Notes: generated from the sequence alone by a model not told the origin. Positions 1 to 29,320 are shown, counted from the first letter of the stretch. The stretch is DNA of 64,000 nt from Acidobacteriota bacterium (GCA_019347945.1 JAHWKK010000003.1:157059-221058), one strand, 5' to 3'. Translations and numbers: made by a program.

Positions 1-1206
1 AGCCCTCGAGCCGTCGAGACTCCGGTGAGCATCCGGAGGATCTTCCACACGGTGCGGGCGATCGCTGGGGAGGAGGATGAGCTGAGCCTGCTGGGGAACG
101 CCGGCGAGATCGTCGTCGGCGAGGCGATGCAGCCGTACCTCGCCTACGGATGGCAGCCTCAGGTGATGGCGACGTGGGACGATCATCAGGCGATCTTTGC
201 GGGCGTGCTCGAAGCGTACGACCTCCAGGCGGATCCTGCGCAGTCGAACGACCTCGGTTCACAGGCCGAGATCCCGCGGCCGGTTCGCGCGGCGCTCACC
301 TCCTATCCGATTCCGTCGATCTCCGGCGGCCGCGACAACGTCGAGCTCTCCGACGAGGAGCGGCGGCAGCTCGCGAGCCTCGGATACGTCACGGGTGGTC
401 CGGCTCCGGCAATCCGGGAGGATGCCCCGAGACCGGTGGAAATGGCGGATCTGTTCGACGAGCTCGACCGCGCGTCCGGCGCGTTCGCAGCGCAGCGATG
501 GGAGGAAGCGATCCCGATTCTCCGGGAGATCCTCGCGCTGGACGAGTCGAATCTGATGGCGGCGCTGCGGCTCGCTGCGGCGTACTCCGCGACGGGCGAC
601 GACGAGAAGGCGATGGAAGCGTTTCGCCGTGCGCGGGAGATTGCTCCCGACTCCCCGGACGTCGATCACTACGAGGGGTTGCATCATGCGAGACAGAGAG
701 ACTGGGAACGTGCCGTTCCGCTGCTGGAGGAGTCGCTCCGCAACGAGCCGGGCAGGCTGGCTGCGATCGAGGCGCTCGCGAGGCAGAGGGCTTCCGAGGG
801 GCGGTTCCGCGAGGCGCTCGATCTGTGGGAGCGGGCCGATGCGATCGAGCCGCTGAGCGCGGATCAGTCGCGAATGGCGGGAGCGGCGGCGATGAGGCTC
901 GGCGACACGCCGCTCGCTCTGAAGTATCTGGAGCGCGCGCGATCGATCCTGGGCGCGCGATTCGAGAACGATCTCGAGCTCGGTGTTCTCTATCTCGAGA
1001 CTAGGCGATTTCGAGAAGCGAGAGCGGCCCTCGACAGGGCGGTTCAAAGAGACCCTGAGAACCCGATGGCGCTGTTCAAGCGGGCGCAGCTCAGCGTTCT
1101 GCTGGGGGAGCCGGAGGCATCGCAGTGGATCGCAAAGGCGAGACGTGCGGCGGATGCGGTCACCGCTCCGCTCATCGACAAAGAGCGTCTTTTCGAGGGC
1201 TACTGA
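1..1206 (+). CDS. Sulfatase/phosphodiesterase-family protein with C-terminal TPR repeats (5' partial)
   Basis: Only the 3' part is in the window: the frame is open to base 1 and the GTG at 25 is internal. The first ~120 visible residues read as the end of an alkaline-phosphatase-superfamily sulfatase domain (TPVSIRRIFHTV, then the linker SDEERRQLASLGYV that often follows such domains). From about residue 140 to the end the protein is a run of TPR-like 34-residue helix pairs (for example WEEAIPILREILALDESN and FREALDLWERADAIEP). Sulfatase-TPR fusions are common in Acidobacteriota; substrate and location cannot be told without the N-terminus. Its stop codon overlaps the stop of the convergent acyl-CoA dehydrogenase gene by 7 bases, leaving no room for a terminator between them. 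Confidence 0.75.
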   Translation, partial: SPRAVETPVSIRRIFHTVRAIAGEEDELSLLGNAGEIVVGEAMQPYLAYGWQPQVMATWDDHQAIFAGVLEAYDLQADPAQSNDLGSQAEIPRPVRAALTSYPIPSISGGRDNVELSDEERRQLASLGYVTGGPAPAIREDAPRPVEMADLFDELDRASGAFAAQRWEEAIPILREILALDESNLMAALRLAAAYSATGDDEKAMEAFRRAREIAPDSPDVDHYEGLHHARQRDWERAVPLLEESLRNEPGRLAAIEALARQRASEGRFREALDLWERADAIEPLSADQSRMAGAAAMRLGDTPLALKYLERARSILGARFENDLELGVLYLETRRFREARAALDRAVQRDPENPMALFKRAQLSVLLGEPEASQWIAKARRAADAVTAPLIDKERLFEGY

Positions 1207-11822: not shown

Positions 11823-12785
11823 GTGAAGAATCTCAAGTTGGTCGTTGTCTCCCTGTTGATATTGCCCGCCGCGGTCGCCCCCGCACCGCTCGCCTACGGA
11901 GAGGAGAAGACGCCGGGCCTCGAGGTCGTCAAAAGGCTCTCGCCGCCTGAAGTATCCCGCCATCTCGCCGAGCTCTCCGCCTTTCTCGATGCGAAGCGAG
12001 GCGAGTTGAGACCGAACGCCGTGCTCGACGACCGCTGGAGCTGGATCTTCGCGATTCCACTCGCCGGAAACACTCCGGGAAGCCGGGGGACCTACTTCCG
12101 ATCGGACGTCACGTTCTCCAACCAGAACTTCGAACGATCGCAGTTCTTCCGCGTGTTCTTCTTTCCTCAGGGGATGGACAACACCGCTGCACAGGGCTTT
12201 CTGCTCGATCTCAGGGGAGGCGAGATCTTCACGGCTCGAGACTTCATAGGAGACTTCCTCGGGATCACCGGAATCGGCACGCTTCTCGTCCATGGTGTCG
12301 ATGAAAACGGGAATATCGATCAGCTCGCCGCTCTCGATGGTTACTCGCGAGTCTGGACTCCCCAGCGCGACGATCCGACCGCCACGGCCTCGGCGCAGTT
12401 CAACGCGGTCGACGTCAATCTTCTCGCGAATTTGCCAGGAGCGGTCGCGATCGGTCTTCGCAACGACCCTGAGTTCAGAACGAACGTTGGAATCGTGAAC
12501 CTCAGCTCGAGATCCGAGACGTGGGACGTGACGGTCATCGGCGAAGGAGGTGCTTTCACGCTGCTGGAGATCACGGTCCCGCCGCAATCGGTCAAGCACG
12601 TTGGCGTTGGGGACATCGATCTCGGAAATACCTTCGTCGAGTTCCAGGTCCGGGGAGACCCAACCGGACTCCAATGGCTCGCGTACGGGACGACGAACGA
12701 CAACATCTCCGGCGATGGCTGGGTTTCGCTCGCTACGCCGCAGCGCGAAGCCCCCGGTGGTACTCGTGGAGACAGACCGTATTAG
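11823..12785 (+). CDS. Secreted protein of unknown function, copy A
   Basis: 320 residues with a clear signal peptide (KNLKLVVVSLLILPAAVAPAPLAYG). Then come an amphipathic helix (EVSRHLAELSAFLDAKRGEL) and a beta-rich domain with the motifs AGNTPGSRGTYFRSDVTF, FRTNVGIVNLSS, W-D-V-T-V and, near the end, WLAYGTTNDNISGD. Proteins of this style are frequent in Acidobacteriota and look like surface or periplasmic beta-sandwiches; I know no function. GTG start chosen because TTGGAGGT lies 5 bases upstream and it opens directly into the signal peptide. About four in five residues match copy B (13497-14435). Confidence 0.75.
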   Translation: MKNLKLVVVSLLILPAAVAPAPLAYGEEKTPGLEVVKRLSPPEVSRHLAELSAFLDAKRGELRPNAVLDDRWSWIFAIPLAGNTPGSRGTYFRSDVTFSNQNFERSQFFRVFFFPQGMDNTAAQGFLLDLRGGEIFTARDFIGDFLGITGIGTLLVHGVDENGNIDQLAALDGYSRVWTPQRDDPTATASAQFNAVDVNLLANLPGAVAIGLRNDPEFRTNVGIVNLSSRSETWDVTVIGEGGAFTLLEITVPPQSVKHVGVGDIDLGNTFVEFQVRGDPTGLQWLAYGTTNDNISGDGWVSLATPQREAPGGTRGDRPY

Positions 12786-13496: not shown

Positions 13497-14435
13497 TTGA
13501 AGAAGCTCATGCTGGTCGTTGTCTCCCTGTTGATATTGCCCGCCACCCTCGCCCCCGCCCAACTCGCCTACGGAGAGGAGAAGACGCCGGGCCTCGAGAT
13601 CGTCAAGAGGCTCTCGCCGTCTGAAGTATCCCGCCATCTCGCCGAGCTCTCCGCCGTTCTCGAGGCGAAGAGAGGTGAGTTGAGACCGAACGTCGTGACC
13701 GAGGACCAATGGAACTGGATCTTCTCGATTCCACTTGCCGGAAACAATCCGGGGAGCCGAGGAACCTACTTCCGATCAGACGTCACGTTCTCGAACCAGC
13801 ACTTCGATCGAAAGCAGCGCTTCGTCGTGTTCTTCTTTCCTCAGGGAATGGACAACACCGCTGCCGAGGGTATCGTGCTCGGGCTCGATGAAGGTGAGAT
13901 CGTCACGGTTCGAGACTTCATAGGTTTCCTCGGAATCACCGGGCTCGGGTCGCTTTTCGTCCATGGAGTCGATCAAAACGGGAATGTCGACCAGCTCGCC
14001 GCTCTCGATGCTTACTCGCGAGTCTGGACTCCCCAGCCCGACAATGCGACCGGCGCCACGGCCTCGGCGCAGTTCAACGCGGTCGACATCGGCCTCCTCC
14101 AGGGCCTGGATAGAGCAGTCGCGATCGGTCTTCGCAACGACCCTGAGTTCCGAACGAACGTTGGAATCGTGAACCTCAGCTCCAGGTCCGAGACCTGGGA
14201 CGTAACGGTCATCGGCGAAGGAGGTAATTTCACGGTGCTGGAGATCGCGGTCCCGCCGCAATCGGTCAGACATGTTGGGGTTGGGGGCATCGATCTGGGA
14301 AATCTCTACGTCGAGTTCCAAGTCCAGGGAGACCCGACCGGACTCAACTGGCTCGCGTACGGGACGACGAACGACAACATCTCCGGCGATGGCTGGGTGT
14401 CGCTCGCCACGCCGCAGCGCGAAGACGCTCCCTGA
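13497..14435 (+). CDS. Secreted protein of unknown function, copy B
   Basis: 312 residues, paralogue of the gene at 11823-12785, with the same signal peptide (KKLMLVVVSLLILPATLAPAQLAYG), helix (EVSRHLAELSAVLEAKRGEL), beta-rich body (FRTNVGIVNLSS) and C-terminal motif WLAYGTTNDNISGD. The TTG start at 13497 is chosen from GGAGG 5 bases upstream and by analogy with copy A; a much longer open frame upstream runs through the xerD relic and is not coding. Differences between the copies are mostly conservative, so both are probably under selection. Function unknown. Confidence 0.75.
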   Translation: MKKLMLVVVSLLILPATLAPAQLAYGEEKTPGLEIVKRLSPSEVSRHLAELSAVLEAKRGELRPNVVTEDQWNWIFSIPLAGNNPGSRGTYFRSDVTFSNQHFDRKQRFVVFFFPQGMDNTAAEGIVLGLDEGEIVTVRDFIGFLGITGLGSLFVHGVDQNGNVDQLAALDAYSRVWTPQPDNATGATASAQFNAVDIGLLQGLDRAVAIGLRNDPEFRTNVGIVNLSSRSETWDVTVIGEGGNFTVLEIAVPPQSVRHVGVGGIDLGNLYVEFQVQGDPTGLNWLAYGTTNDNISGDGWVSLATPQREDAP

Positions 14436-19056: not shown

Positions 19057-19593
19057 TCAGGGCGTCGGAAGACGGTTGATGACCCCGCACGCGATTCTGG
19101 CTCCGGCGTTTCCCGAGGGCTGCGAAGTGAGATCGTCGGGGTCGGCATGGAGGACGACCGCGCGGTTGGCGACCGAGTTCGTTCCCTCATGGGCCGAGAG
19201 AACATGCGAACGGACCGTGGTGCTGACGCGGCCGTTGCGGTTCGCGGTCACGTTCCCGAGATCTCCTGCATGCTTCTGCCCATCCGTTGGAGCGCCATGT
19301 GGCATGCCGTGAGGGGAGAAGTGATCGCCGGCGGATGAGCCGTCTGCGGCGCTGCAATTCCCATTTTCGTGAATGTGAAAACCGTGAACTCCCGGCGGAA
19401 CGTTCGAAAGACTGATCTCGATGTCGACGCTGCCGTTGGGCCACTCGAGAAATGTCACGACGCCTTGTGCCGTCGAACCGCTGCGACCCTCAAGGGTGGC
19501 GACGGCCTTTGCGGTCGGCTGCCGGGACGACATACAGGCCACGAGAGTTGAAACCACGAATAATGCGAAGGTGAACGTCACCAGTTTTTTCAT
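19057..19593 (-). CDS. sodC: Cu/Zn superoxide dismutase lipoprotein
   Basis: 178 residues. N-terminal lipoprotein signal (KKLVTFTFALFVVSTLVAC; lipobox L-V-A-C) predicts membrane anchoring outside the cytoplasm. Copper ligands are seen in GFHIHENG, the bridging/zinc histidines and Asp in GDHFSPHG and KHAGDLGN, and the last copper His in VVLHADPDD. The disulfide cysteines are in HENGNC and IACGVI. It dismutates extracytoplasmic superoxide. The ATG at 19593 has GGAGG 7 bases upstream; a longer frame without a site is rejected. Confidence 0.93.
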   Translation of the reverse strand: MKKLVTFTFALFVVSTLVACMSSRQPTAKAVATLEGRSGSTAQGVVTFLEWPNGSVDIEISLSNVPPGVHGFHIHENGNCSAADGSSAGDHFSPHGMPHGAPTDGQKHAGDLGNVTANRNGRVSTTVRSHVLSAHEGTNSVANRAVVLHADPDDLTSQPSGNAGARIACGVINRLPTP

Positions 19594-19648
19594 CGGGAAC
19601 CTCCAGCGCGAGTAAAGCTGCAACCGTCGGGCCGGATGGCTGGGACCT

Positions 19649-21217
19649 TCAGCTGAGTCCGAGCTCGGAGACGAGCTGATCGATGGTCATGACCTCTTCT
19701 GCTCCGTCCTGCCGGCGCAGCTTCGCGTGATACCAGCCGTCCATCGCCACCGGTGTATAGAGCTTTCCGCCGATGTGCAGCTTCTTTCCGGAAGTGAGTG
19801 CAAGGAACACCTGCTCGTAGATGCTGCGGCTGAGCTTCGTATCCGGATAAAAGCGCTCCCGATACTTCACCTTCGCCTTCCGCCCCGCGACCGCGCGAGC
19901 TGGCGGCCGCCGTGCGGTTTTTGCTGCTTTTTTGGTCGGACGCTGGTGTGTACGAGGCGGTGGCGGGGCCGGCGGCGCGGCGTCATCATCCGGGGCCTTC
20001 GGGTCGGGCGCCGCAGCCGCCGCGGCAGCTCGTCGCGGTCGCCGGGGCGCGTCGCCGGTCTCTGCCTTCCTGGCGGCTTCGGTCTCGTTCTCGATTCCGT
20101 GGCGGACGTCGAGAGCCTTCGAAACGATCCATTCAGTCTTGTCGGTCGCGGAACCGCGGGCGGCGACGCGGCCGGGAAAGCGACTCATCGCGAGAATGCG
20201 TTCGCTGAGAAGCAGACCCCACCGGCAGAGAACGCCGACGTGATCGTAGGCGAGAGGGCGATCGGTGAGCTCGAGAAGCGAGCGGCTCTTTCGCTCGAGC
20301 ACGGCGAACAGCAGGCGCGAACTGAACGGATCCGAATGCCGGAGAATCGATTTTCTGAAGTAGCGCGCCGTCTCCAGACCGATGCGGCGAAGCGAGCGCT
20401 TCTTTCCGTCGGTACAAACCCAGACGCGTTCGTCGACGTCGGTCGTGAACGGGCTCCGCGGGTAATGGAAATCTTTCGTCAGCCACCCCTTTCGAGTCGT
20501 GTGTTTTCCGGGGGTGACGTTCGCGATCAGCGGGATGGGGAGCTCTTCGAGGACATCGAGCTCGTACGAGCTCCAGGTCATGATCTCGCGAACGATGCCG
20601 ATGATGGCTGCAGCGGTGGCGATCATCATGACCGGATCCGGGGTGAAATCGAGCGTGATCTCGATCCGGCCTCCGCGAGGCCGTACTCCGACTCCCGTCG
20701 ACCTGCGGTTTGCTCCGAGCATCATCAGGATCGGGGGGAAGATGTAAGCGAGCAGCAGGGAGAGTTTCCTTTCGTTGCGCGAGCTCGACTGCTGTGATCG
20801 GGGGATCTCGAAGGAGACGTTGTAGTGGGAGCTGTATCCCCTCAGTCTCACCTCGTGCCCGGTCCTCTTTTCCCACTCGGTGAGTTGATCGCGGACGAAG
20901 GCGATCTGCTCCCACAGGCTGCGGACCATTCGCGCCGTACATTTCGGCGCGACTTCGATCAGAGGAGTGACGACTTCGATGACGCCACGATCGAAATAGA
21001 CGGCGCCACCGGTCGGAAGCTGAAGCGAGCGTCCTTCGCGCGGAAGAAGCGGAATCGTGATGAAGTCGGTCGGAGCTTTCCAGAACTTTTCCGGAACGAC
21101 CTCGGATCCGTCGACCCAGACATTGAACTCCGATTCCATCCCGACGGCGGGCATGAGGAGTTTTCCTCCGCGTCGGCGGGGGCGGCGGGCTCGCTTGGGA
21201 AGGGGGGTGCGGGACAT
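19649..21217 (-). CDS. Glutamine-synthetase-fold carboxylate-amine ligase, PafA/Dop-like (predicted amidoligase)
   Basis: 522 residues. Motifs match the Pup ligase/deamidase (PafA/Dop) layout: GMESEF near residue 30 (compare G-I-E-T-E-F, the Mg-ATP glutamates), LPTGGAVYFDRGVIEVVTP near 70-85 (compare Y-x-D-x-G-x-x-E-x-x-T), and YSSHYNVSF near 130 (compare Y-G-x-H-E-N-Y). A GCS2-like RPRGGRIEIT strand follows near 180. Such folds join a carboxylate to an amine with ATP. An Ala/Pro/Arg-rich linker (~380-440) leads to a ~70-residue C-terminal domain (HIGGKLYTPV, WYHAKLRR). The ATG at 21217 has GGGAG just upstream. No Pup or proteasome gene is nearby. Last gene of an operon with M15 peptidase and beta-lactamase-fold genes. 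Fold assignment is by eye; substrate unknown. Confidence 0.65.
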   Translation of the reverse strand: MSRTPLPKRARRPRRRGGKLLMPAVGMESEFNVWVDGSEVVPEKFWKAPTDFITIPLLPREGRSLQLPTGGAVYFDRGVIEVVTPLIEVAPKCTARMVRSLWEQIAFVRDQLTEWEKRTGHEVRLRGYSSHYNVSFEIPRSQQSSSRNERKLSLLLAYIFPPILMMLGANRRSTGVGVRPRGGRIEITLDFTPDPVMMIATAAAIIGIVREIMTWSSYELDVLEELPIPLIANVTPGKHTTRKGWLTKDFHYPRSPFTTDVDERVWVCTDGKKRSLRRIGLETARYFRKSILRHSDPFSSRLLFAVLERKSRSLLELTDRPLAYDHVGVLCRWGLLLSERILAMSRFPGRVAARGSATDKTEWIVSKALDVRHGIENETEAARKAETGDAPRRPRRAAAAAAAPDPKAPDDDAAPPAPPPPRTHQRPTKKAAKTARRPPARAVAGRKAKVKYRERFYPDTKLSRSIYEQVFLALTSGKKLHIGGKLYTPVAMDGWYHAKLRRQDGAEEVMTIDQLVSELGLS

Positions 21218-21261
21218 GACTCCCACTGGATAAAGCAATAGGTCTGCCCGGCGGCGGCGGC

Positions 21262-21963
21262 TCAGTTCGGCTCGCCGGTTTGCAGCTGATCGCGCCTTCG
21301 GTCGGAGTGGACCCGGCGCTCGAGAGCGTCGGGAAGAATGACGACTTCCCGGGGATCCTCCTCCAGCTCCGGGGGATCGAGCAGGGCATAGCCGATGTCG
21401 AGATGGAGATGATCGTCCGCGTGTCCCGGTTCGCTTCCCCAGGGGCTGATCCGGAGGGATGCGTCGACTTCGCGGACAACCGAGGCAAACTTTTCGTGAG
21501 GCTCCTCACCGTCGATGAGCGTCGATCCGATCCGATAGATGTCGGCGCCGCATGCCCATCGGTGGGGATCGCCCCGGTGCCCCCTCTGGTGGAGCGGGGA
21601 ACGATAGCCTCCGTTGACCGAAATATTGAGCGTCGAGCCGACGGCGTTGCGAACGTTCTGAAGAGTCAGGGCGAGGAACCGGACGGCTGTCGGGATGTAA
21701 CGGGGGAACGAACGGAGGGGTTCAGCTTCCTTCAGGTCGACTCGAAGAAATTCGCCGATCGCAAAGTGAGTCGTCAGGTAGGTGTTCCATGCGGCCTTCT
21801 TCGAAGGAACGCGAAGGAAAAATCTCGGGAGTCGCCTCAGCTTTCCCTCGAAATCACGAACGAATGCGCCGGGTGAGAGGCACGATCGAAGCGGTTCCTC
21901 CAGCGTGAATCCGTCGACAACCGTCACTTCCTCGCTCTCAGGCGTCGCTTCTGTTTCGGTCAC
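21262..21963 (-). CDS. M15-type zinc peptidase (DD-/LD-carboxypeptidase-like), no signal peptide
   Basis: 233 residues. The metallopeptidase core is visible: ISVNGGYRSPLHQ, then HRWACGADIY (H-x6-D, near 136) and ADDHLHLDIGY (catalytic Asp/Glu position and third zinc His, near 186). This is the VanY/M15 arrangement normally used to trim D-Ala or peptidoglycan stems. No signal peptide or membrane segment is seen. GTG start at 21963 with GGGGGAG 7 bases upstream; it begins 26 bases inside the end of the upstream beta-lactamase-fold gene, so the two are translationally coupled. The amidoligase follows after 44 bases. Confidence 0.7.
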   Translation of the reverse strand: MTETEATPESEEVTVVDGFTLEEPLRSCLSPGAFVRDFEGKLRRLPRFFLRVPSKKAAWNTYLTTHFAIGEFLRVDLKEAEPLRSFPRYIPTAVRFLALTLQNVRNAVGSTLNISVNGGYRSPLHQRGHRGDPHRWACGADIYRIGSTLIDGEEPHEKFASVVREVDASLRISPWGSEPGHADDHLHLDIGYALLDPPELEEDPREVVILPDALERRVHSDRRRDQLQTGEPN

Positions 21964-22828
21964 TCGCCATCTCCCCCAGGAATGAATGGATTCCCGCCGT
22001 GATCTCCGCGACCGCCCCGGATGGCTTCCTGCCCGGAGGGAACTGGGTGAGCACGGCGAGTACGTAAGGCTTCCTCTCCTCGAAAAAGACGATCCCGGCG
22101 TCGTGATGAACTGTCGAGATGTTTCCCGTCTTGTGCGCAACTCTCGCCTGCTCGGGAAGGCCTGCCGGGATGCCGCTCCGGTACTTCTGGTCGTGGAGAA
22201 TCTCGAGCATCGCCTCGCTCGCTTCCTCGCTGAAGGCTCGTTTTTCGGTGATTGCCCGCAACAGGCTGACGAGTCCGTTGGCGCTTGTCTCGTTGTTGAG
22301 TCCGGCTTCGAAGGCGACCTCGTCCTGAACCCCGCGCAGCACCCTGATTCCGTCGACACCCAGCTCGTCGAGGGCCTTTGCGATCGCCGGGATTCCGACC
22401 AGTTGAACGAGGAGGTTGGTCGCGAGATTCGACGATGTCGTGATCATGTGGTGCATCAGTTCCCGAATCGGCAGCGCTGTCCCGATTCGGTCCGCGATGC
22501 TGTCCGACTTCGGGTTGACGCTGAGCCGGAAGACCGAGCCGTCGACGATGCTCTCGAACCGGTTCCGGACGTGGAGCGTGTCGTCGATCCCGAAGGTGCC
22601 CCGGGCGGCCTGCCGGAAAACGGCTGCCATGACGGCGATCTTCATCGTCGATGCGGCATGGAATGGAGCATCGCCGTTATAGGCCCACTGCACGGTGGTT
22701 TCGTAGTCGTAGTACGAGATTGCGAGATCGCTCAGCTCGTGCGCGTTCTTCAACTCGATAATCCGGGAGTACAGCGACGTTTCGACGCTTTCCCGGGTCG
22801 CATTCTCGGCGAGTGGCGCCTGGCTCAT
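21938..22828 (-). CDS. Class A beta-lactamase-fold serine hydrolase, apparently cytoplasmic
   Basis: 296 residues with the full class A set: S-x-x-K in ASTMKIA (near 61), S-S-N in TTSSNLATN (the SDN position, near 132), omega-loop E-x-x-L-N in EAGLN (near 176) and K-T-G in HKTGNIS (near 233). Members hydrolyse beta-lactams or act as DD-peptidases/esterases. Unlike secreted beta-lactamases, this one starts at MSQAPLAENATRES with no signal peptide, and no upstream in-frame start would add one. It overlaps the M15 peptidase gene by 26 bases and lies 43 bases behind tupC, so it may share the transporter promoter. Role with its operon partners unknown. Confidence 0.85.
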   Translation of the reverse strand: MSQAPLAENATRESVETSLYSRIIELKNAHELSDLAISYYDYETTVQWAYNGDAPFHAASTMKIAVMAAVFRQAARGTFGIDDTLHVRNRFESIVDGSVFRLSVNPKSDSIADRIGTALPIRELMHHMITTSSNLATNLLVQLVGIPAIAKALDELGVDGIRVLRGVQDEVAFEAGLNNETSANGLVSLLRAITEKRAFSEEASEAMLEILHDQKYRSGIPAGLPEQARVAHKTGNISTVHHDAGIVFFEERKPYVLAVLTQFPPGRKPSGAVAEITAGIHSFLGEMASDRNRSDA

Positions 22829-22871: not shown

Positions 22872-23456
22872 TCAAATGGAATCCCGCCCGCCGCGCATCG
22901 AGATCTCGCTGAAAGGAACGTGTGAAAGGACCGGAACGTCGTGCGTCGCGATGACGATGAGTGGCCGCTTCAGGCGGACTGATTCTTCCATCACTCGGGT
23001 CCACGCCATCATCCCTTCTTCGTCGAGTGCCGCGGTGGTCTCGTCGACGAGCAGCACTTCGGGATCGGCAGCCATGGCTCGCGCCAGTGCCACTCGTGCG
23101 CGCTGACCCGAGGAGAGTGTGCCTACGTCGCGATCCAACAGTTCCATCGCTTCGAGTCGTCTGAGCGCATCGTCTGCCGGTGCTGTTCCGGACCCGGCCA
23201 GGCCGAGATTGAACGCCACCGATCCGCGAAAGAGAAAAGGATTCGAATGTACGAAGACTCGCCTTCCGAACTCGGGAGAGATCACGCCTTCCAGAGGAGG
23301 CTGCAGCGTTGCGAGAGATCTCAGAAACGTCGTCTTGCCTGAACCGTTGCTGCCGGTCACCACGAGAACCCGATCCGCTTCGACCCGTCCGGCGGGAACG
23401 CGGGCGATCGTCGCATCGTAGCCGAGCGCGAGCCCGGTCCATCTGATTCCGATCAC
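22872..23456 (-). CDS. tupC: Tungstate-type ABC transporter ATP-binding protein
   Basis: 194-residue ABC ATPase, short for the family. Walker A is GSNGSGKTT, Q-loop region FVHSNPFLFRG, signature LSSGQ, Walker B VLLVDE and H-loop IATHDVP. The short length and the pairing with a TupB-like permease and TupA-like binding protein suggest tungstate (or molybdate) uptake. The GTG start overlaps the permease stop by 4 bases (GTGA). The longer open frame upstream is not coding. Confidence 0.85.
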   Translation of the reverse strand: MIGIRWTGLALGYDATIARVPAGRVEADRVLVVTGSNGSGKTTFLRSLATLQPPLEGVISPEFGRRVFVHSNPFLFRGSVAFNLGLAGSGTAPADDALRRLEAMELLDRDVGTLSSGQRARVALARAMAADPEVLLVDETTAALDEEGMMAWTRVMEESVRLKRPLIVIATHDVPVLSHVPFSEISMRGGRDSI

Positions 23457-24139
23457 GACCTTCCCCCCATCCGAACCACGCCGTTGACCAGGAGTGCGAT
23501 CGCAATGAGAACGAGCCCCAGCGCGATCGCTCTCGCGTCGTCTCCTCTGTTGTGTTCCAGCGCGATCACCGTCGTCAGTACGCGGGTCTCTCCCCTGATG
23601 TTGCCGCCCAGAATGATTGCCGCCCCGACTTCCGTGAACACTCGGGCGAATGCGATCATCGCAGCCGAGCGGAGCTCCGAAGCGGACTCCCGTACCAGCA
23701 GCCAGCCGGTCCGGACCTTTCCGATTCCGAGGGTGCGTGCCGTCTCTCGGGCTTCCGGCGGGAGCGACTTCAGCGCGGTGAGAAGAAACGCCGCGATGAT
23801 CGGCGTCGCCAGAATCGCCTGGCCGGCCACCATCGCCGCGCGGGTGTATAGAAGATCCATCCACCCGAGCGGACCGGAGGAAGAGAGCAGGAGATAGAGA
23901 AAGAGCCCGATTCCGACGGTGGGGAGCGCGGTGAGCGTATGGACCAGCCACGAGGCGATTCTCGACGTGATACCTCGTGCCGAAGAGAGAACCACCGCGA
24001 CGGGAATCGCCAGGATGAGCGCGATCAGAAGCGCCGCGAGCGACACCGAAACCGAGGTCAGCGTCACTGTCACGAGCTCGCGGTCCCAGGCCGCCAGGAG
24101 TCGAAGCGCCTCGCCGAACGATTCGAGAAGGGGGCTCAT
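23453..24139 (-). CDS. tupB: Tungstate-type ABC transporter permease
   Basis: 228 residues with about five or six membrane helices and the EAA-loop region (ARETARTLGIGKVRTGWLLVRE). FTEVGAAIILGGNIRG is the conserved core motif of TupB/WtpB permeases. Forms the inner-membrane channel. Starts inside the stop of the binding-protein gene (ATGA overlap) and ends overlapping the ATPase, giving a tight tupA-tupB-tupC order. Confidence 0.88.
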   Translation of the reverse strand: MSPLLESFGEALRLLAAWDRELVTVTLTSVSVSLAALLIALILAIPVAVVLSSARGITSRIASWLVHTLTALPTVGIGLFLYLLLSSSGPLGWMDLLYTRAAMVAGQAILATPIIAAFLLTALKSLPPEARETARTLGIGKVRTGWLLVRESASELRSAAMIAFARVFTEVGAAIILGGNIRGETRVLTTVIALEHNRGDDARAIALGLVLIAIALLVNGVVRMGGRS

Positions 24140-25038
24140 CGGGGGAGATCGTCCGGTCGGGAGTCGGGCCGCCCTTCGGGCCAGGCCCGGAACGGTTTCT
24201 CGCCCTCGATGGAGAAGTCTTCGATCACTTTACGTCCGGAACCTCTGGTGATCCATTCCCCGAAACGGATCGCCTCTGCGCTGCGGGGCCTGCCCCGCCG
24301 GATCGTCAACGCGTAGCAGTTGAGCATCGCGTTTTCGGAGGGATCGCTGAAGAGAGGCTCGAGCCTCAGTGTGTTTTCGAGCTTCAGGAACGTTGCTCGA
24401 TCAGTCAGCAGATAGCCGGAGCGCTCCGACGCGATGCGGAGAGTTCCCGCCATTCCCTGTCCGGTCTCGACGAGGAGGGAAGGCTCAGGCGCGACCCCCG
24501 CGGCTGCCCAGAGGCTCGACTCCCTTACGTGGGTCCCCGAATCGTCGGCCCGCGAAATGAAGGGGGAACCGGATCTCGCAATCCGAATCATGGCGTCGAG
24601 AGGTGACTCCGCGGCCTCGACCCTCGCAGGATCCTGCTCCGGCCCGGCGATCAGAAAATCGGTGCACATGAACTTCCGGTACCAGGGATCGGGCAGCTCC
24701 CGAAGGAGTTTGGATTCCCCGTTCGGCTCGTGAGTGATTGCAGCGTCCGCATCGCCGGCGCGAAGGATGTCGAACGCCCGTCCGCTCCCGGCGCTGAGAG
24801 TCTCGAGTCGTTCTCCGGATTCATTTTCCCAGGCGATCGTGAGGGCCTCGGCGAGGCCGGAGTTGTCGAAAGACGTCGAGGCGACGAGTCGAAGGGGGGT
24901 GCCGGAAGATTCCTTCGCGCAGCCGGCTATCACGAGCGACAGAACGGCTGCCGCGAAGATGAGCTTGTGCGGATCCGCGAAGAATTTCCAGGCCTCGTCG
25001 ATGCTTGCGGGTATCGTTTGTGATCGGACCGGTTTCAT
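24136..25038 (-). CDS. tupA: Tungstate-type substrate-binding lipoprotein with chimeric N-terminus
   Basis: 300 residues. The body has the TupA/PBP oxyanion-binding pattern: STSFDNSGLAEAL, AGSGRAFDILRAGDADAAITHEP, SRADDSGTH and LTDRATFL. The lipobox is LSLVIAGC. Odd: the ~27 residues before the hydrophobic core (QTIPASIDEAWKFFADPHKL) are not signal-like and closely resemble the start of SRPBCC/START-domain proteins. The ATG at 25038 is the only usable start in frame, with no good Shine-Dalgarno. It looks like a fusion of the first codons of an SRPBCC gene to a tupA signal peptide. Tungstate versus molybdate cannot be settled by eye. Confidence 0.8.
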   Translation of the reverse strand: MKPVRSQTIPASIDEAWKFFADPHKLIFAAAVLSLVIAGCAKESSGTPLRLVASTSFDNSGLAEALTIAWENESGERLETLSAGSGRAFDILRAGDADAAITHEPNGESKLLRELPDPWYRKFMCTDFLIAGPEQDPARVEAAESPLDAMIRIARSGSPFISRADDSGTHVRESSLWAAAGVAPEPSLLVETGQGMAGTLRIASERSGYLLTDRATFLKLENTLRLEPLFSDPSENAMLNCYALTIRRGRPRSAEAIRFGEWITRGSGRKVIEDFSIEGEKPFRAWPEGRPDSRPDDLPR

Positions 25039-25098: not shown

Positions 25099-26415
25099 AT
25101 GACGAAACACGATTTGTACAAAGAGCATCTCAGAGTCGTATCCGATCGTTTTGATCGCGCGCTCGAATCGGCCGGCTACGACGGAGTGGTGATCTTCTCG
25201 GGAAGTCAGCACATGATCTTCCTCGATGACATGCCCTATCCGTTCAAGTCGAATCCCCACTTCAAGACGTGGGTCCCACTGACGGGAGAGCCGGATTCCT
25301 ACGTCGTCTACGAGCCTGGAAGCAAGCCACGGGTTCTTTTTCATCAGCCGGTCGATTTCTGGCACAAGCCGCCGTCGACGCCGGCCGCGGACTGGGTGAC
25401 GGAGGTCGATCTCGAGGTCACGAAAACAACTGAAGAAGCCGCCGGAAAGTTGCCGAAGGATGGGAAATGGGCGTGGCTCGGGGAGCCGGCCAACGGAACC
25501 TCGAAGCGATTCGACGTGAATCCGGAAGATCTCATTTCGTTTCTCGATTACGAGCGCGCCTGGAAGACCGAGTACGAGATCGACTGCATGCGAAGGGCAA
25601 ACGATCGCGCCGCGCGCGGGCACATCGCCGCGCGACGAGCCTTCGAGGACGGTGCCTCCGAATGGGAAATCCATCTCGAGTACCTCCGGGCGACCGAACA
25701 GAACGAAGCGGGTCTTCCGTACGGAAACATCATCGCGCTCAACGAGAATGCGGCCGTCCTTCACTATCAGCATCAGGAGCGCGAGCGGCCGGGGGACAAC
25801 CGGCGGTCTTTCCTGATCGATGCCGGAGCGAGCTGGAACGGCTACGCCAGCGACATCACGCGAACCTGGTCCGCGGGTGATGCGGAGTTCCAGTTCCTGA
25901 TCGACTCGATGAATCAGGCACAGAAATCACTGGTCGGCGAAGTCAGGCCGGGAGTCGATTACAAGGAGCTTCACATGTCGGCTCACCGACGGGTAGGCCA
26001 GATCCTGAGAGATCACGAGCTCGTCGACATGTCGATCGAGGAAATGGTCGATGAGGGCGTGACGGGCAAATTCTTTCCACATGGCGTCGGTCATTACATC
26101 GGCCTCCAGGTTCACGACGTCGGGGGATTCAAGGCGAACCGCAACGGCAAGGAGATTCCGAAGCCGGAAGGGCATCCGTTTCTCCGGTTGACGAGAGTTC
26201 TCGAGCCGACCCACGTCCTGACCATCGAGCCGGGGCTCTATTTCATCGATTCACTTCTCGACGAGCTCCGCGTTGGACCTCACGGCAAAGGGGTCGACTG
26301 GAGAGGCATCGACCGTCTGCGGCCGTTCGGTGGCGTTCGGATCGAGGATGATGTCGTCGTTCGCGAGCGGGAGTGCGAGAACCTCACCCGGGACGCCTTC
26401 GCACGGATCGCCTGA
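25099..26415 (+). CDS. pepQ: Xaa-Pro dipeptidase (prolidase), M24B
   Basis: 438 residues, like PepQ (~443). It cleaves dipeptides ending in proline in the cytoplasm, using two metal ions. Metal ligands are visible: the two Asp in LIDAGASWNGYASDITRTW, His in HGVGHYIGLQVHD, Glu in TIEPGLYFI and Glu in GGVRIEDDVVV. The ATG at 25099 has CAGGAG 7 bases upstream and is preferred to an upstream ATG at 25051. Divergent from tupA. With proline dehydrogenase at 28.4 kb it would allow proline from peptides to be catabolised. Confidence 0.93.
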   Translation: MTKHDLYKEHLRVVSDRFDRALESAGYDGVVIFSGSQHMIFLDDMPYPFKSNPHFKTWVPLTGEPDSYVVYEPGSKPRVLFHQPVDFWHKPPSTPAADWVTEVDLEVTKTTEEAAGKLPKDGKWAWLGEPANGTSKRFDVNPEDLISFLDYERAWKTEYEIDCMRRANDRAARGHIAARRAFEDGASEWEIHLEYLRATEQNEAGLPYGNIIALNENAAVLHYQHQERERPGDNRRSFLIDAGASWNGYASDITRTWSAGDAEFQFLIDSMNQAQKSLVGEVRPGVDYKELHMSAHRRVGQILRDHELVDMSIEEMVDEGVTGKFFPHGVGHYIGLQVHDVGGFKANRNGKEIPKPEGHPFLRLTRVLEPTHVLTIEPGLYFIDSLLDELRVGPHGKGVDWRGIDRLRPFGGVRIEDDVVVRERECENLTRDAFARIA

Positions 26416-28402: not shown

Positions 28403-29320
28403 ATGCTCAGAACCATTTTCATCAAATTGTCGGAAAGCGGGACTCTGCGAAAACTCGCGGAAGACTCCGCGTTCGGTAACCGTCTCTCCAGCCGCTTCGT
28501 CGCGGGAACCACGGTCGAGCAGGCGATCGCCGCTGCGGCCGAGCTCAACCAGGCGGGAATCAGCTTTTCACTCGACTACCTCGGTGAGAATGTCAGCAGC
28601 GAAGAGGAGGCCAGGCAGAACGAGGTCTTCTATCGGGGCTTGCTCGAGGAGATCCACGCGAAGGGTCTCGACGGTAACGCGAGTATGAAGCTGACCCAGA
28701 TGGGCCTCGACTCGAGCACCGAGCTTGCGACCGAGATCACCGCGAATCTCGTCAGTCGGGCTGCCGCGCTCGGGACATTTCTGCGCGTCGACATGGAGGG
28801 AAGCGACTACACGCAGCGCACGCTCGACATCGTCCGGGAAGTGCATGGCCGCGAGGGGAACGCGGGTCACGTGGGCGCCGTGATCCAGAGTTACCTCTAT
28901 CGGAGCGAAGCCGATGTGCGCGATCTCTGCGCGCGCGGCATCAGAATTCGCCTCTGCAAAGGCGCCTACAAGGAGCCGGCGGAGATCGCCTGGCAGGACA
29001 AGGCGGACGTCGACGCCAGCTTCGTGCGCCTGATGAAGATCATGCTGGAGAGCGGCATCTACCACGGCATCGCGACGCACGACGAGAAGATGATCGATGC
29101 GACCATCTCCTGGGCGACCGAGCGAAGCATCGACTCCTCCGCCTTCGAGTTCCAGATGCTGTACGGCATTCGCCGCGATCTTCAGGAAAAGCTCGTGCGC
29201 GATGGGTGGAATATGCGCGTCTATGTCCCCTTCGGCGACGAGTGGTATCCCTACTTCATGCGGAGGCTGGCCGAGAGGCCGGCGAACGTCATCTTCGTTC
29301 TGAAGAATCTGTTCCGCTGA
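28403..29320 (+). CDS. Proline dehydrogenase (monofunctional)
   Basis: About 305 residues, (beta/alpha)8 FAD enzyme oxidising proline to pyrroline-5-carboxylate and feeding electrons to quinone. Conserved motifs: SLDYLGENV near the start, FLRVDMEGSDYTQRTLDI, VIQSYLYRSEAD, IRLCKGAYKEP, GIATHDEKMI, FEFQMLYGIRRDLQ and VYVPFGDEWYPYFMRRLAERPAN (the R-x-x-E-R-P substrate clamp). The start is ATG 28403 or the GTG just before it (28400). TATGAT lies 10 bases upstream of that GTG and no Shine-Dalgarno is seen. The partner P5C dehydrogenase is not in this window. Confidence 0.92.
   Translation: MLRTIFIKLSESGTLRKLAEDSAFGNRLSSRFVAGTTVEQAIAAAAELNQAGISFSLDYLGENVSSEEEARQNEVFYRGLLEEIHAKGLDGNASMKLTQMGLDSSTELATEITANLVSRAAALGTFLRVDMEGSDYTQRTLDIVREVHGREGNAGHVGAVIQSYLYRSEADVRDLCARGIRIRLCKGAYKEPAEIAWQDKADVDASFVRLMKIMLESGIYHGIATHDEKMIDATISWATERSIDSSAFEFQMLYGIRRDLQEKLVRDGWNMRVYVPFGDEWYPYFMRRLAERPANVIFVLKNLFR

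Follow-up and report, generated by a model that had tools for sequence, protein, structure and literature searches.

A PafA/Dop-like ligase of a new family is encoded with two hydrolases in a gene trio conserved across four phyla

What do a ligase and two peptide hydrolases do together when all three appear to stay inside the cell? This question is raised by a three-gene locus in the genome of an Acidobacteriota bacterium (GCA_019347945.1), which we analyzed within a window of 64,000 nucleotides (JAHWKK010000003.1:157059-221058). The nearest relatives of this soil acidobacterium among the genomes compared are Thermoanaerobaculia/subdivision 7 genomes. The locus encodes a class A beta-lactamase-fold serine hydrolase (here named BLA), a Peptidase_M15_3-like metallopeptidase (M15), and a glutamine synthetase (GS)-fold, PafA/Dop-like ATP-dependent carboxylate-amine ligase (LIG). 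Open reading frame (ORF) calls on the minus strand returned the three genes where an original prediction from the bare sequence had placed them (Table 1), with a 26-base overlap between BLA and M15 and a 44-base gap between M15 and LIG. An in-frame TTG at 21238 offers an alternative LIG start that yields 529 amino acids, and LIG residues are numbered here according to this TTG form. The trio is a conserved, uncharacterised set found across four phyla, which we propose to be a make-and-break system, and what is new in it is the ligase family at its core, together with the BLA and M15 partners.

A scan for LIG, using one genome per species and covering about 85,000 species, revealed 61 LIG loci. 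BLA, M15 and LIG are kept in the same order and on the same strand in 50 of them, including all 33 loci outside Acidobacteriota (Verrucomicrobiota, Gemmatimonadota, and three Ramlibacter). The other 11 loci depart from this arrangement, are all acidobacterial, and nearly all carry a LIG paralogue, LIG2. Co-occurrence of the trio homologues, the lack of which would have counted against the original prediction, is thus found across phyla and, given that order and strand are kept, the association is far beyond chance. Among 61 related genomes, an M15 orthologue was present in 15, always beside LIG, and LIG was present in 17. Furthermore, the pairwise divergences of BLA, M15 and LIG correlate with each other (r 0.81-0.88, to which species history contributes), as expected for co-inheritance. 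In the LIG tree, the Ramlibacter proteins nest with those of Gemmatimonadota, which suggests horizontal transfer of the trio. A mobile element or defence system was considered and rejected, since searches of 72,556 plasmids and 50,697 phages brought up no LIG match and no credible PADLOC match was obtained for the trio.

Neither the window LIG nor, in the Pfam scan, 25 diverse members gave a credible match to Pfam, and NCBIfam likewise yielded no credible match; the assignment to a GS-like fold is therefore based on AlphaFold and Foldseek results. AlphaFold2 predicted a catalytic core with a pLDDT above 90, followed by a disordered linker and a small C-terminal domain. The top nine Foldseek matches were all PafA or Dop (E 4e-8 to 5e-6, probability 1.00), with PafA 4bjr as the best (E 3.8e-8) and Dop 7oyh close by (E 7.7e-8); TM-scores were low (0.30-0.44), indicating a distant relationship. 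The next match was YbdK/GCS2 (1r8g, E 3e-5), and the remaining ones were non-significant. The PafA/Dop-like GS fold originally proposed for LIG was thereby recovered.

Profile comparison pointed in the same direction. LIG versus PafA/Dop gave a P value of 2e-4, compared to 0.18-0.44 for controls, with a small PafA/Dop profile made of structure chains and one further PafA sequence. The comparison pairs GMESEF with GIETEY, YFDRGVIEVVTP with YLDVGSHPEYAT, and SSHYN with GCHEN, and it aligns the PafA catalytic Asp (Asn in the 4bjr chain, Asp in 4b0t) with the invariant D83 of LIG. A comparison with GCS2 was non-significant (P 0.06-0.08) and is used only as a contrast, the GCS2 alignment being rough and some of its N termini doubtful.

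Motifs of the carboxylate-amine ligase superfamily (GS fold) have been defined previously (PMC2588565), and their invariance in LIG was judged on an alignment of 25 diverse members. The GhExE / Ex[EH] motif of core strand 1 is present as an invariant G33-x-E35-x-E37, and the [HDQ]x[NH] motif of core strand 4 as an invariant H138-x-N140 on strand 130-142. D83 and E88 are also invariant and lie on predicted strands 79-83 and 86-90. The Arg of strand 5 and that of the preceding loop correspond to R186, invariant on strand 182-187, and R178, replaced by Lys in some members. On strand 6, an invariant E193-x-T195-x-D197 keeps the acidic pair and deviates in spacing and in the basic residue. LIG carries four of the five superfamily motifs, with the strand-6 motif as a variant.

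Besides the best structural match, LIG shares with PafA and Dop the motif order GxExE, YxDxG...E..TP, HxN, the conserved catalytic Asp, and a GS-like core followed by a small C-terminal domain. In contrast, identity is only 10-12%, the strand-6 motif differs, and the partners are two hydrolases instead of Pup and the proteasome. PF03136 (PafA/Dop) matched nothing in 61 genomes, LIG included, and Pup (PF05639) was not found in 21 genomes, among them the window's own, while Corynebacterium glutamicum as a control was positive for both. The glutamate-cysteine ligases of the GCS2/YbdK type (PF04107) belong to the same superfamily and provide the next-best structural match; however, LIG does not match PF04107, and the window genome carries a separate, true GCS2. 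LIG is therefore a new family, built like PafA/Dop but not a member of it.

The paralogue LIG2 (L047-L056, family f2, e.g., L048:9096-10514) forms its own clade in the LIG tree and occurs without BLA and M15. Its neighbours are often TonB-like genes, and a few loci have it right next to an M24 Xaa-Pro dipeptidase gene and near purH.

BLA belongs to PF13354 (E 7.8e-53), and its PDB profile match is tll2115 (2j7v, E 5.7e-23), with other class A-like proteins also near. Across 21 members from four phyla, S60xxK63, S132SN and K233TG are invariant. The counterpart of the deacylating Glu166 (E174, assigned by hand from omega-loop spacing) varies between E, D, Q and A among the same members. Because this position is not conserved, BLA is not a canonical beta-lactamase. 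Caution is warranted against annotating the trio genes as antibiotic resistance.

For M15, the window protein itself matched no Pfam family, and Peptidase_M15_3 (PF08291) matched 21 of 24 orthologues with a best E value of 8.8e-7. When five members were checked singly against PF08291, one (L112) was above the gathering cut-off, three were below it, and one had no match. Of the HxxxxxxD...DxxH residues, H134, D184 and H187 are invariant in the orthologue alignment, and a weak alignment with the D-Ala-D-Ala carboxypeptidase 1lbu extends over the metal motif. The AlphaFold model reaches a pLDDT of only 56-73 around the metal site; since it is weak there and without a fold match, the M15 assignment rests on sequence, by which the metal and catalytic residues appear largely intact. 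The second metal ligand, at position 141, toggles between Asp and Asn even between close relatives; for an M15 metal site, this is unusual.

Lack of signal peptides had been part of the original prediction and was confirmed for both hydrolases. No leader-like hydrophobic stretch was detected in 21 BLA and 24 M15 members, alternative starts included, in a simple hydropathy test, which is not a trained predictor: the maximum mean hydropathy over ten residues was 2.15 and mostly below 1.9, versus 2.6-2.8 in exported controls. In the window BLA, a single codon separates an in-frame stop from the ATG, so no upstream extension is possible. All three trio products apparently reside in the cytoplasm.

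We favor, with a rough probability of 0.4, a cytoplasmic, self-contained set that makes and breaks peptide bonds, in which LIG would perform a gamma-glutamyl-type ligation and the hydrolases would act on the same small peptide. What we infer of substrate and reactions is the following. Using ATP, LIG would convert a carboxylate to an acyl phosphate and then join it to an amine; the precedent of the superfamily points to a glutamyl gamma-carboxylate. The amine donor or a neighbouring residue could plausibly be diaminopimelate (DAP) or another D-amino acid. M15 and BLA would act in the cytoplasm to trim or open what LIG makes, or a precursor of it, and the operon would both make and dismantle a small gamma-glutamyl/DAP-type peptide. 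PafA joins a carboxylate to the side chain of lysine; DAP is analogous to lysine and, in its meso form, contains a D-centre, and enzymes of the M15 and penicillin-binding protein/beta-lactamase folds classically act at D-centres. A DAP or D-amino acid substrate would thus explain why both hydrolases come from such families, and a gamma-glutamyl peptide with DAP or a D-residue would be the one substrate class on which the three chemistries and the gene context converge. A small-molecule or peptide substrate is further favored by compact trios, which are too tight to hold a tag gene. In its most specific form, with a PafA-like ligase building a gamma-glutamyl peptide on DAP or on a different D-centre amino acid, and with two wall-type hydrolases repurposed to dismantle or mature it inside the cell, the proposal is tentative and somewhat doubtful.

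The gene context was most telling in acidobacterial family f2, where the trio closes an asd-lysC-dapB-dapA-dapD-aminotransferase operon. All 12 informative loci have both on one strand, and in eight of them no gene separates the trio from the DAP genes. Genes for a lytic transglycosylase, an RlpA-like protein and an S51 peptidase lie downstream. When all acidobacterial neighbours were set against the genes around the 33 non-acidobacterial trios in an unbiased comparison, dapA/dapB was the commonest shared family, recurring at 5 of 33 loci against 2 for the runner-up. Four of these five loci belong to one Udaeobacter-like clade and one, in Chthoniobacter, has the gene at a distance of 8 kb; dapF was also seen near non-acidobacterial trios. 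The DAP-gene link is suggestive and not general. On the question of a DapE substitute, no protein exceeded the dapE_proteo cut-off in trio-bearing or trio-less genomes, and many M20 relatives were found. In Udaeobacter-type loci, a divergent C26 class-I amidotransferase-like gene lies 15 bases from BLA (e.g., L112:7780-8445) and shows a PuuD-like gamma-glutamyl hydrolase match below cut-off.

Several observations weigh against the gamma-glutamyl/DAP proposal. The link to DAP genes is strong in one family only and otherwise mostly confined to one Udaeobacter-like clade; no DAP gene lies near the trio in Ramlibacter and Gemmatimonadota, and the window genome has its DAP operon, unaccompanied by the trio, on a different contig. 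The strand-6 ExTxD of LIG fits neither the [QH]x4D of PafA nor the Ex[RK]x2D of GS/GCS. Furthermore, many M15 orthologues have Asn in place of the metal ligand D141, and Foldseek with the M15 model, weak at the metal site, gave no significant match and no M15 structure, so M15 activity is not assured. Of the make-and-break cycle envisaged originally, the existence of one cytoplasmic ligase-hydrolase system is well supported by fold, co-occurrence and the lack of export signals, whereas action of the enzymes on the same bond is what we infer. The D-residue or isopeptide substrate suggested at the same time is likewise tentative: a D-centre peptide is supported by the recurrent DAP-gene context, but this context is absent from the window genome.

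The same scarcity of DAP genes around most loci would suit a trio that makes or stores a small peptide metabolite having nothing to do with DAP. LIG would then couple two ordinary amino acids, or one amino acid to an amine, while the two hydrolases would serve in processing or recycling. A self-contained trio in four phyla, with possible horizontal transfer between Ramlibacter and Gemmatimonadota, is consistent with this. It also fits that PafA stands apart in its superfamily, whose other members make metabolites (PMC2588565). Such a metabolite system leaves unexplained, however, both the D-centre-acting families of the two hydrolases and the recurrent DAP-gene context, and we regard it as unlikely, though a serious contender. 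Protein tagging in the manner of Pup, in which LIG attaches a peptide tag that BLA and M15 remove or process, is suggested by PafA and Dop being the closest folds and by the Dop/PafA pair, which demonstrates make-and-break tagging by enzymes of this fold (PMC7947786). We consider it quite improbable, given the missing Pup and PafA/Dop in the genomes searched, the lack of space for a small tag ORF between the genes of compact trios (window, Udaeobacter type, Ramlibacter), and hydrolase families that act on small peptides and not on protein isopeptides. Slightly further down the scale stands a trio of three hydrolases that dismantle one imported or turned-over peptide, with LIG acting like Dop, which hydrolyses amides with ADP and phosphate (PMC7947786) and whose structures rank beside PafA in Foldseek. 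Dop is the known exception within a superfamily of ligases, and among the sequence features examined none marks LIG as Dop-like over PafA-like.

Peptidoglycan-related neighbours in family f2 and the D-centre peptidase families could also point to a substitute for Mpl that reattaches recovered stem peptides to UDP-MurNAc. This is highly improbable, as the window genome has an Mpl-like protein (TIGR01081) above the curated cut-off and strong Mpl matches are present both in LIG-bearing relatives and in those lacking LIG, so that no substitute is needed. A wall-recycling role in place of Mpl was rejected on these grounds, Mpl-like proteins being present in all relatives examined; their presence regardless of the trio removes the simplest recycling role. 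Family names alone would suggest an ordinary secreted beta-lactamase and carboxypeptidase placed by chance beside an unrelated ligase. Order and adjacency kept across four phyla, no signal peptide in any member, and the unconserved Glu166 equivalent make this hardly credible, and the conserved order and missing signal peptides refute it, barring a non-classical export route.

With regard to known systems, the pairing of GS-fold ligases with peptidases is an established idea, and the trio resembles the 'new CAL' amidoligase-thiol peptidase systems in combining such a ligase with a peptidase and no Pup-like ORF (PMC2588565). The C26 thiol hydrolase beside Udaeobacter-type trios is reminiscent of the glutamine-amidotransferase-like thiol peptidases of these systems. 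Unlike the 'new CAL' family, which we take to be Pfam Amidoligase_2, LIG has no PF12224 match and is partnered by M15 and BLA-fold hydrolases. A ligase and a cytoplasmic M15 enzyme acting on D-amino acid peptides are also paired in glycopeptide resistance by VanA/VanX, where VanA is an ATP-grasp enzyme and VanX is a dipeptidase of another M15 subfamily; the Van system is not known to have a BLA-fold partner, and the trio carries no evidence for D-Ala-D-Ala. No description of the BLA-M15-LIG trio was found in the literature searched, although the 2009 Iyer amidoligase survey, outside our search, could mention a member; Chthoniobacter flavus is named in the legend of a 2008 alignment (PMC2588565).

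GS-fold ligases gave rise to glutamine and glutathione synthesis and to Pup tagging. If the favored proposal is true, the trio would represent a third GS-fold branch with its own hydrolases in four phyla and a role of the PafA-like fold outside Pup. The gamma-glutamyl/DAP peptide could then be a lysine/DAP-linked store, signal or protective metabolite in soil bacteria. The trio could bring to light a new peptide metabolite, or a function that beta-lactamase-fold and M15 enzymes have inside cells, and it is testable in cultured Ramlibacter and Chthoniobacter.

Table 1. Features of the trio, of LIG and of the surrounding window
Feature	Position	Strand	Remarks
BLA, class A beta-lactamase-fold serine hydrolase	21938-22828	-	296 aa, ATG start
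M15, Peptidase_M15_3-like metallopeptidase	21262-21963	-	233 aa, GTG start
LIG, GS-fold PafA/Dop-like ligase	19649-21217	-	522 aa from ATG
LIG catalytic core	residues ~30-340		AlphaFold2
LIG disordered linker	residues 398-467		
LIG small C-terminal domain	residues 468-529		
TupABC-like ABC transporter	22872-25038	-	last gene ends 43 bases before BLA
TupA-like binding protein	24136-25038	-	
Permease	23453-24139	-	
ATPase	22872-about 23456	-	
Xaa-Pro dipeptidase	25099-26415	+	NF010133 above cut-off
Proline dehydrogenase	28403-29320	+	
Exported Cu/Zn superoxide dismutase	19057-19623	-	starts 25 bases downstream of LIG
ORF with signal-peptide start	11823-12785	+	
ORF with signal-peptide start	13509-14435	+	

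In the window genome only, the TupABC-like genes upstream of BLA may share a transcript with the trio; they were not found beside it in relatives. Their NCBIfam matches to TupA, TupB and TupC are all below the equivalog cut-offs, leaving the anion uncertain. The Xaa-Pro dipeptidase and proline dehydrogenase genes near the trio probably act as a pair in proline catabolism. The M24 prolidase, which adjoins LIG2 in a few f2 loci, was considered as a fourth trio member and rejected, since the window copy goes with proline dehydrogenase and probably serves proline catabolism. In relatives, the superoxide dismutase gene is not kept next to the trio. Further away, two neighbouring ORFs have near-identical signal-peptide starts (VVSLLILPA..APA.LAY) and apparently represent a tandem duplication of an exported protein.

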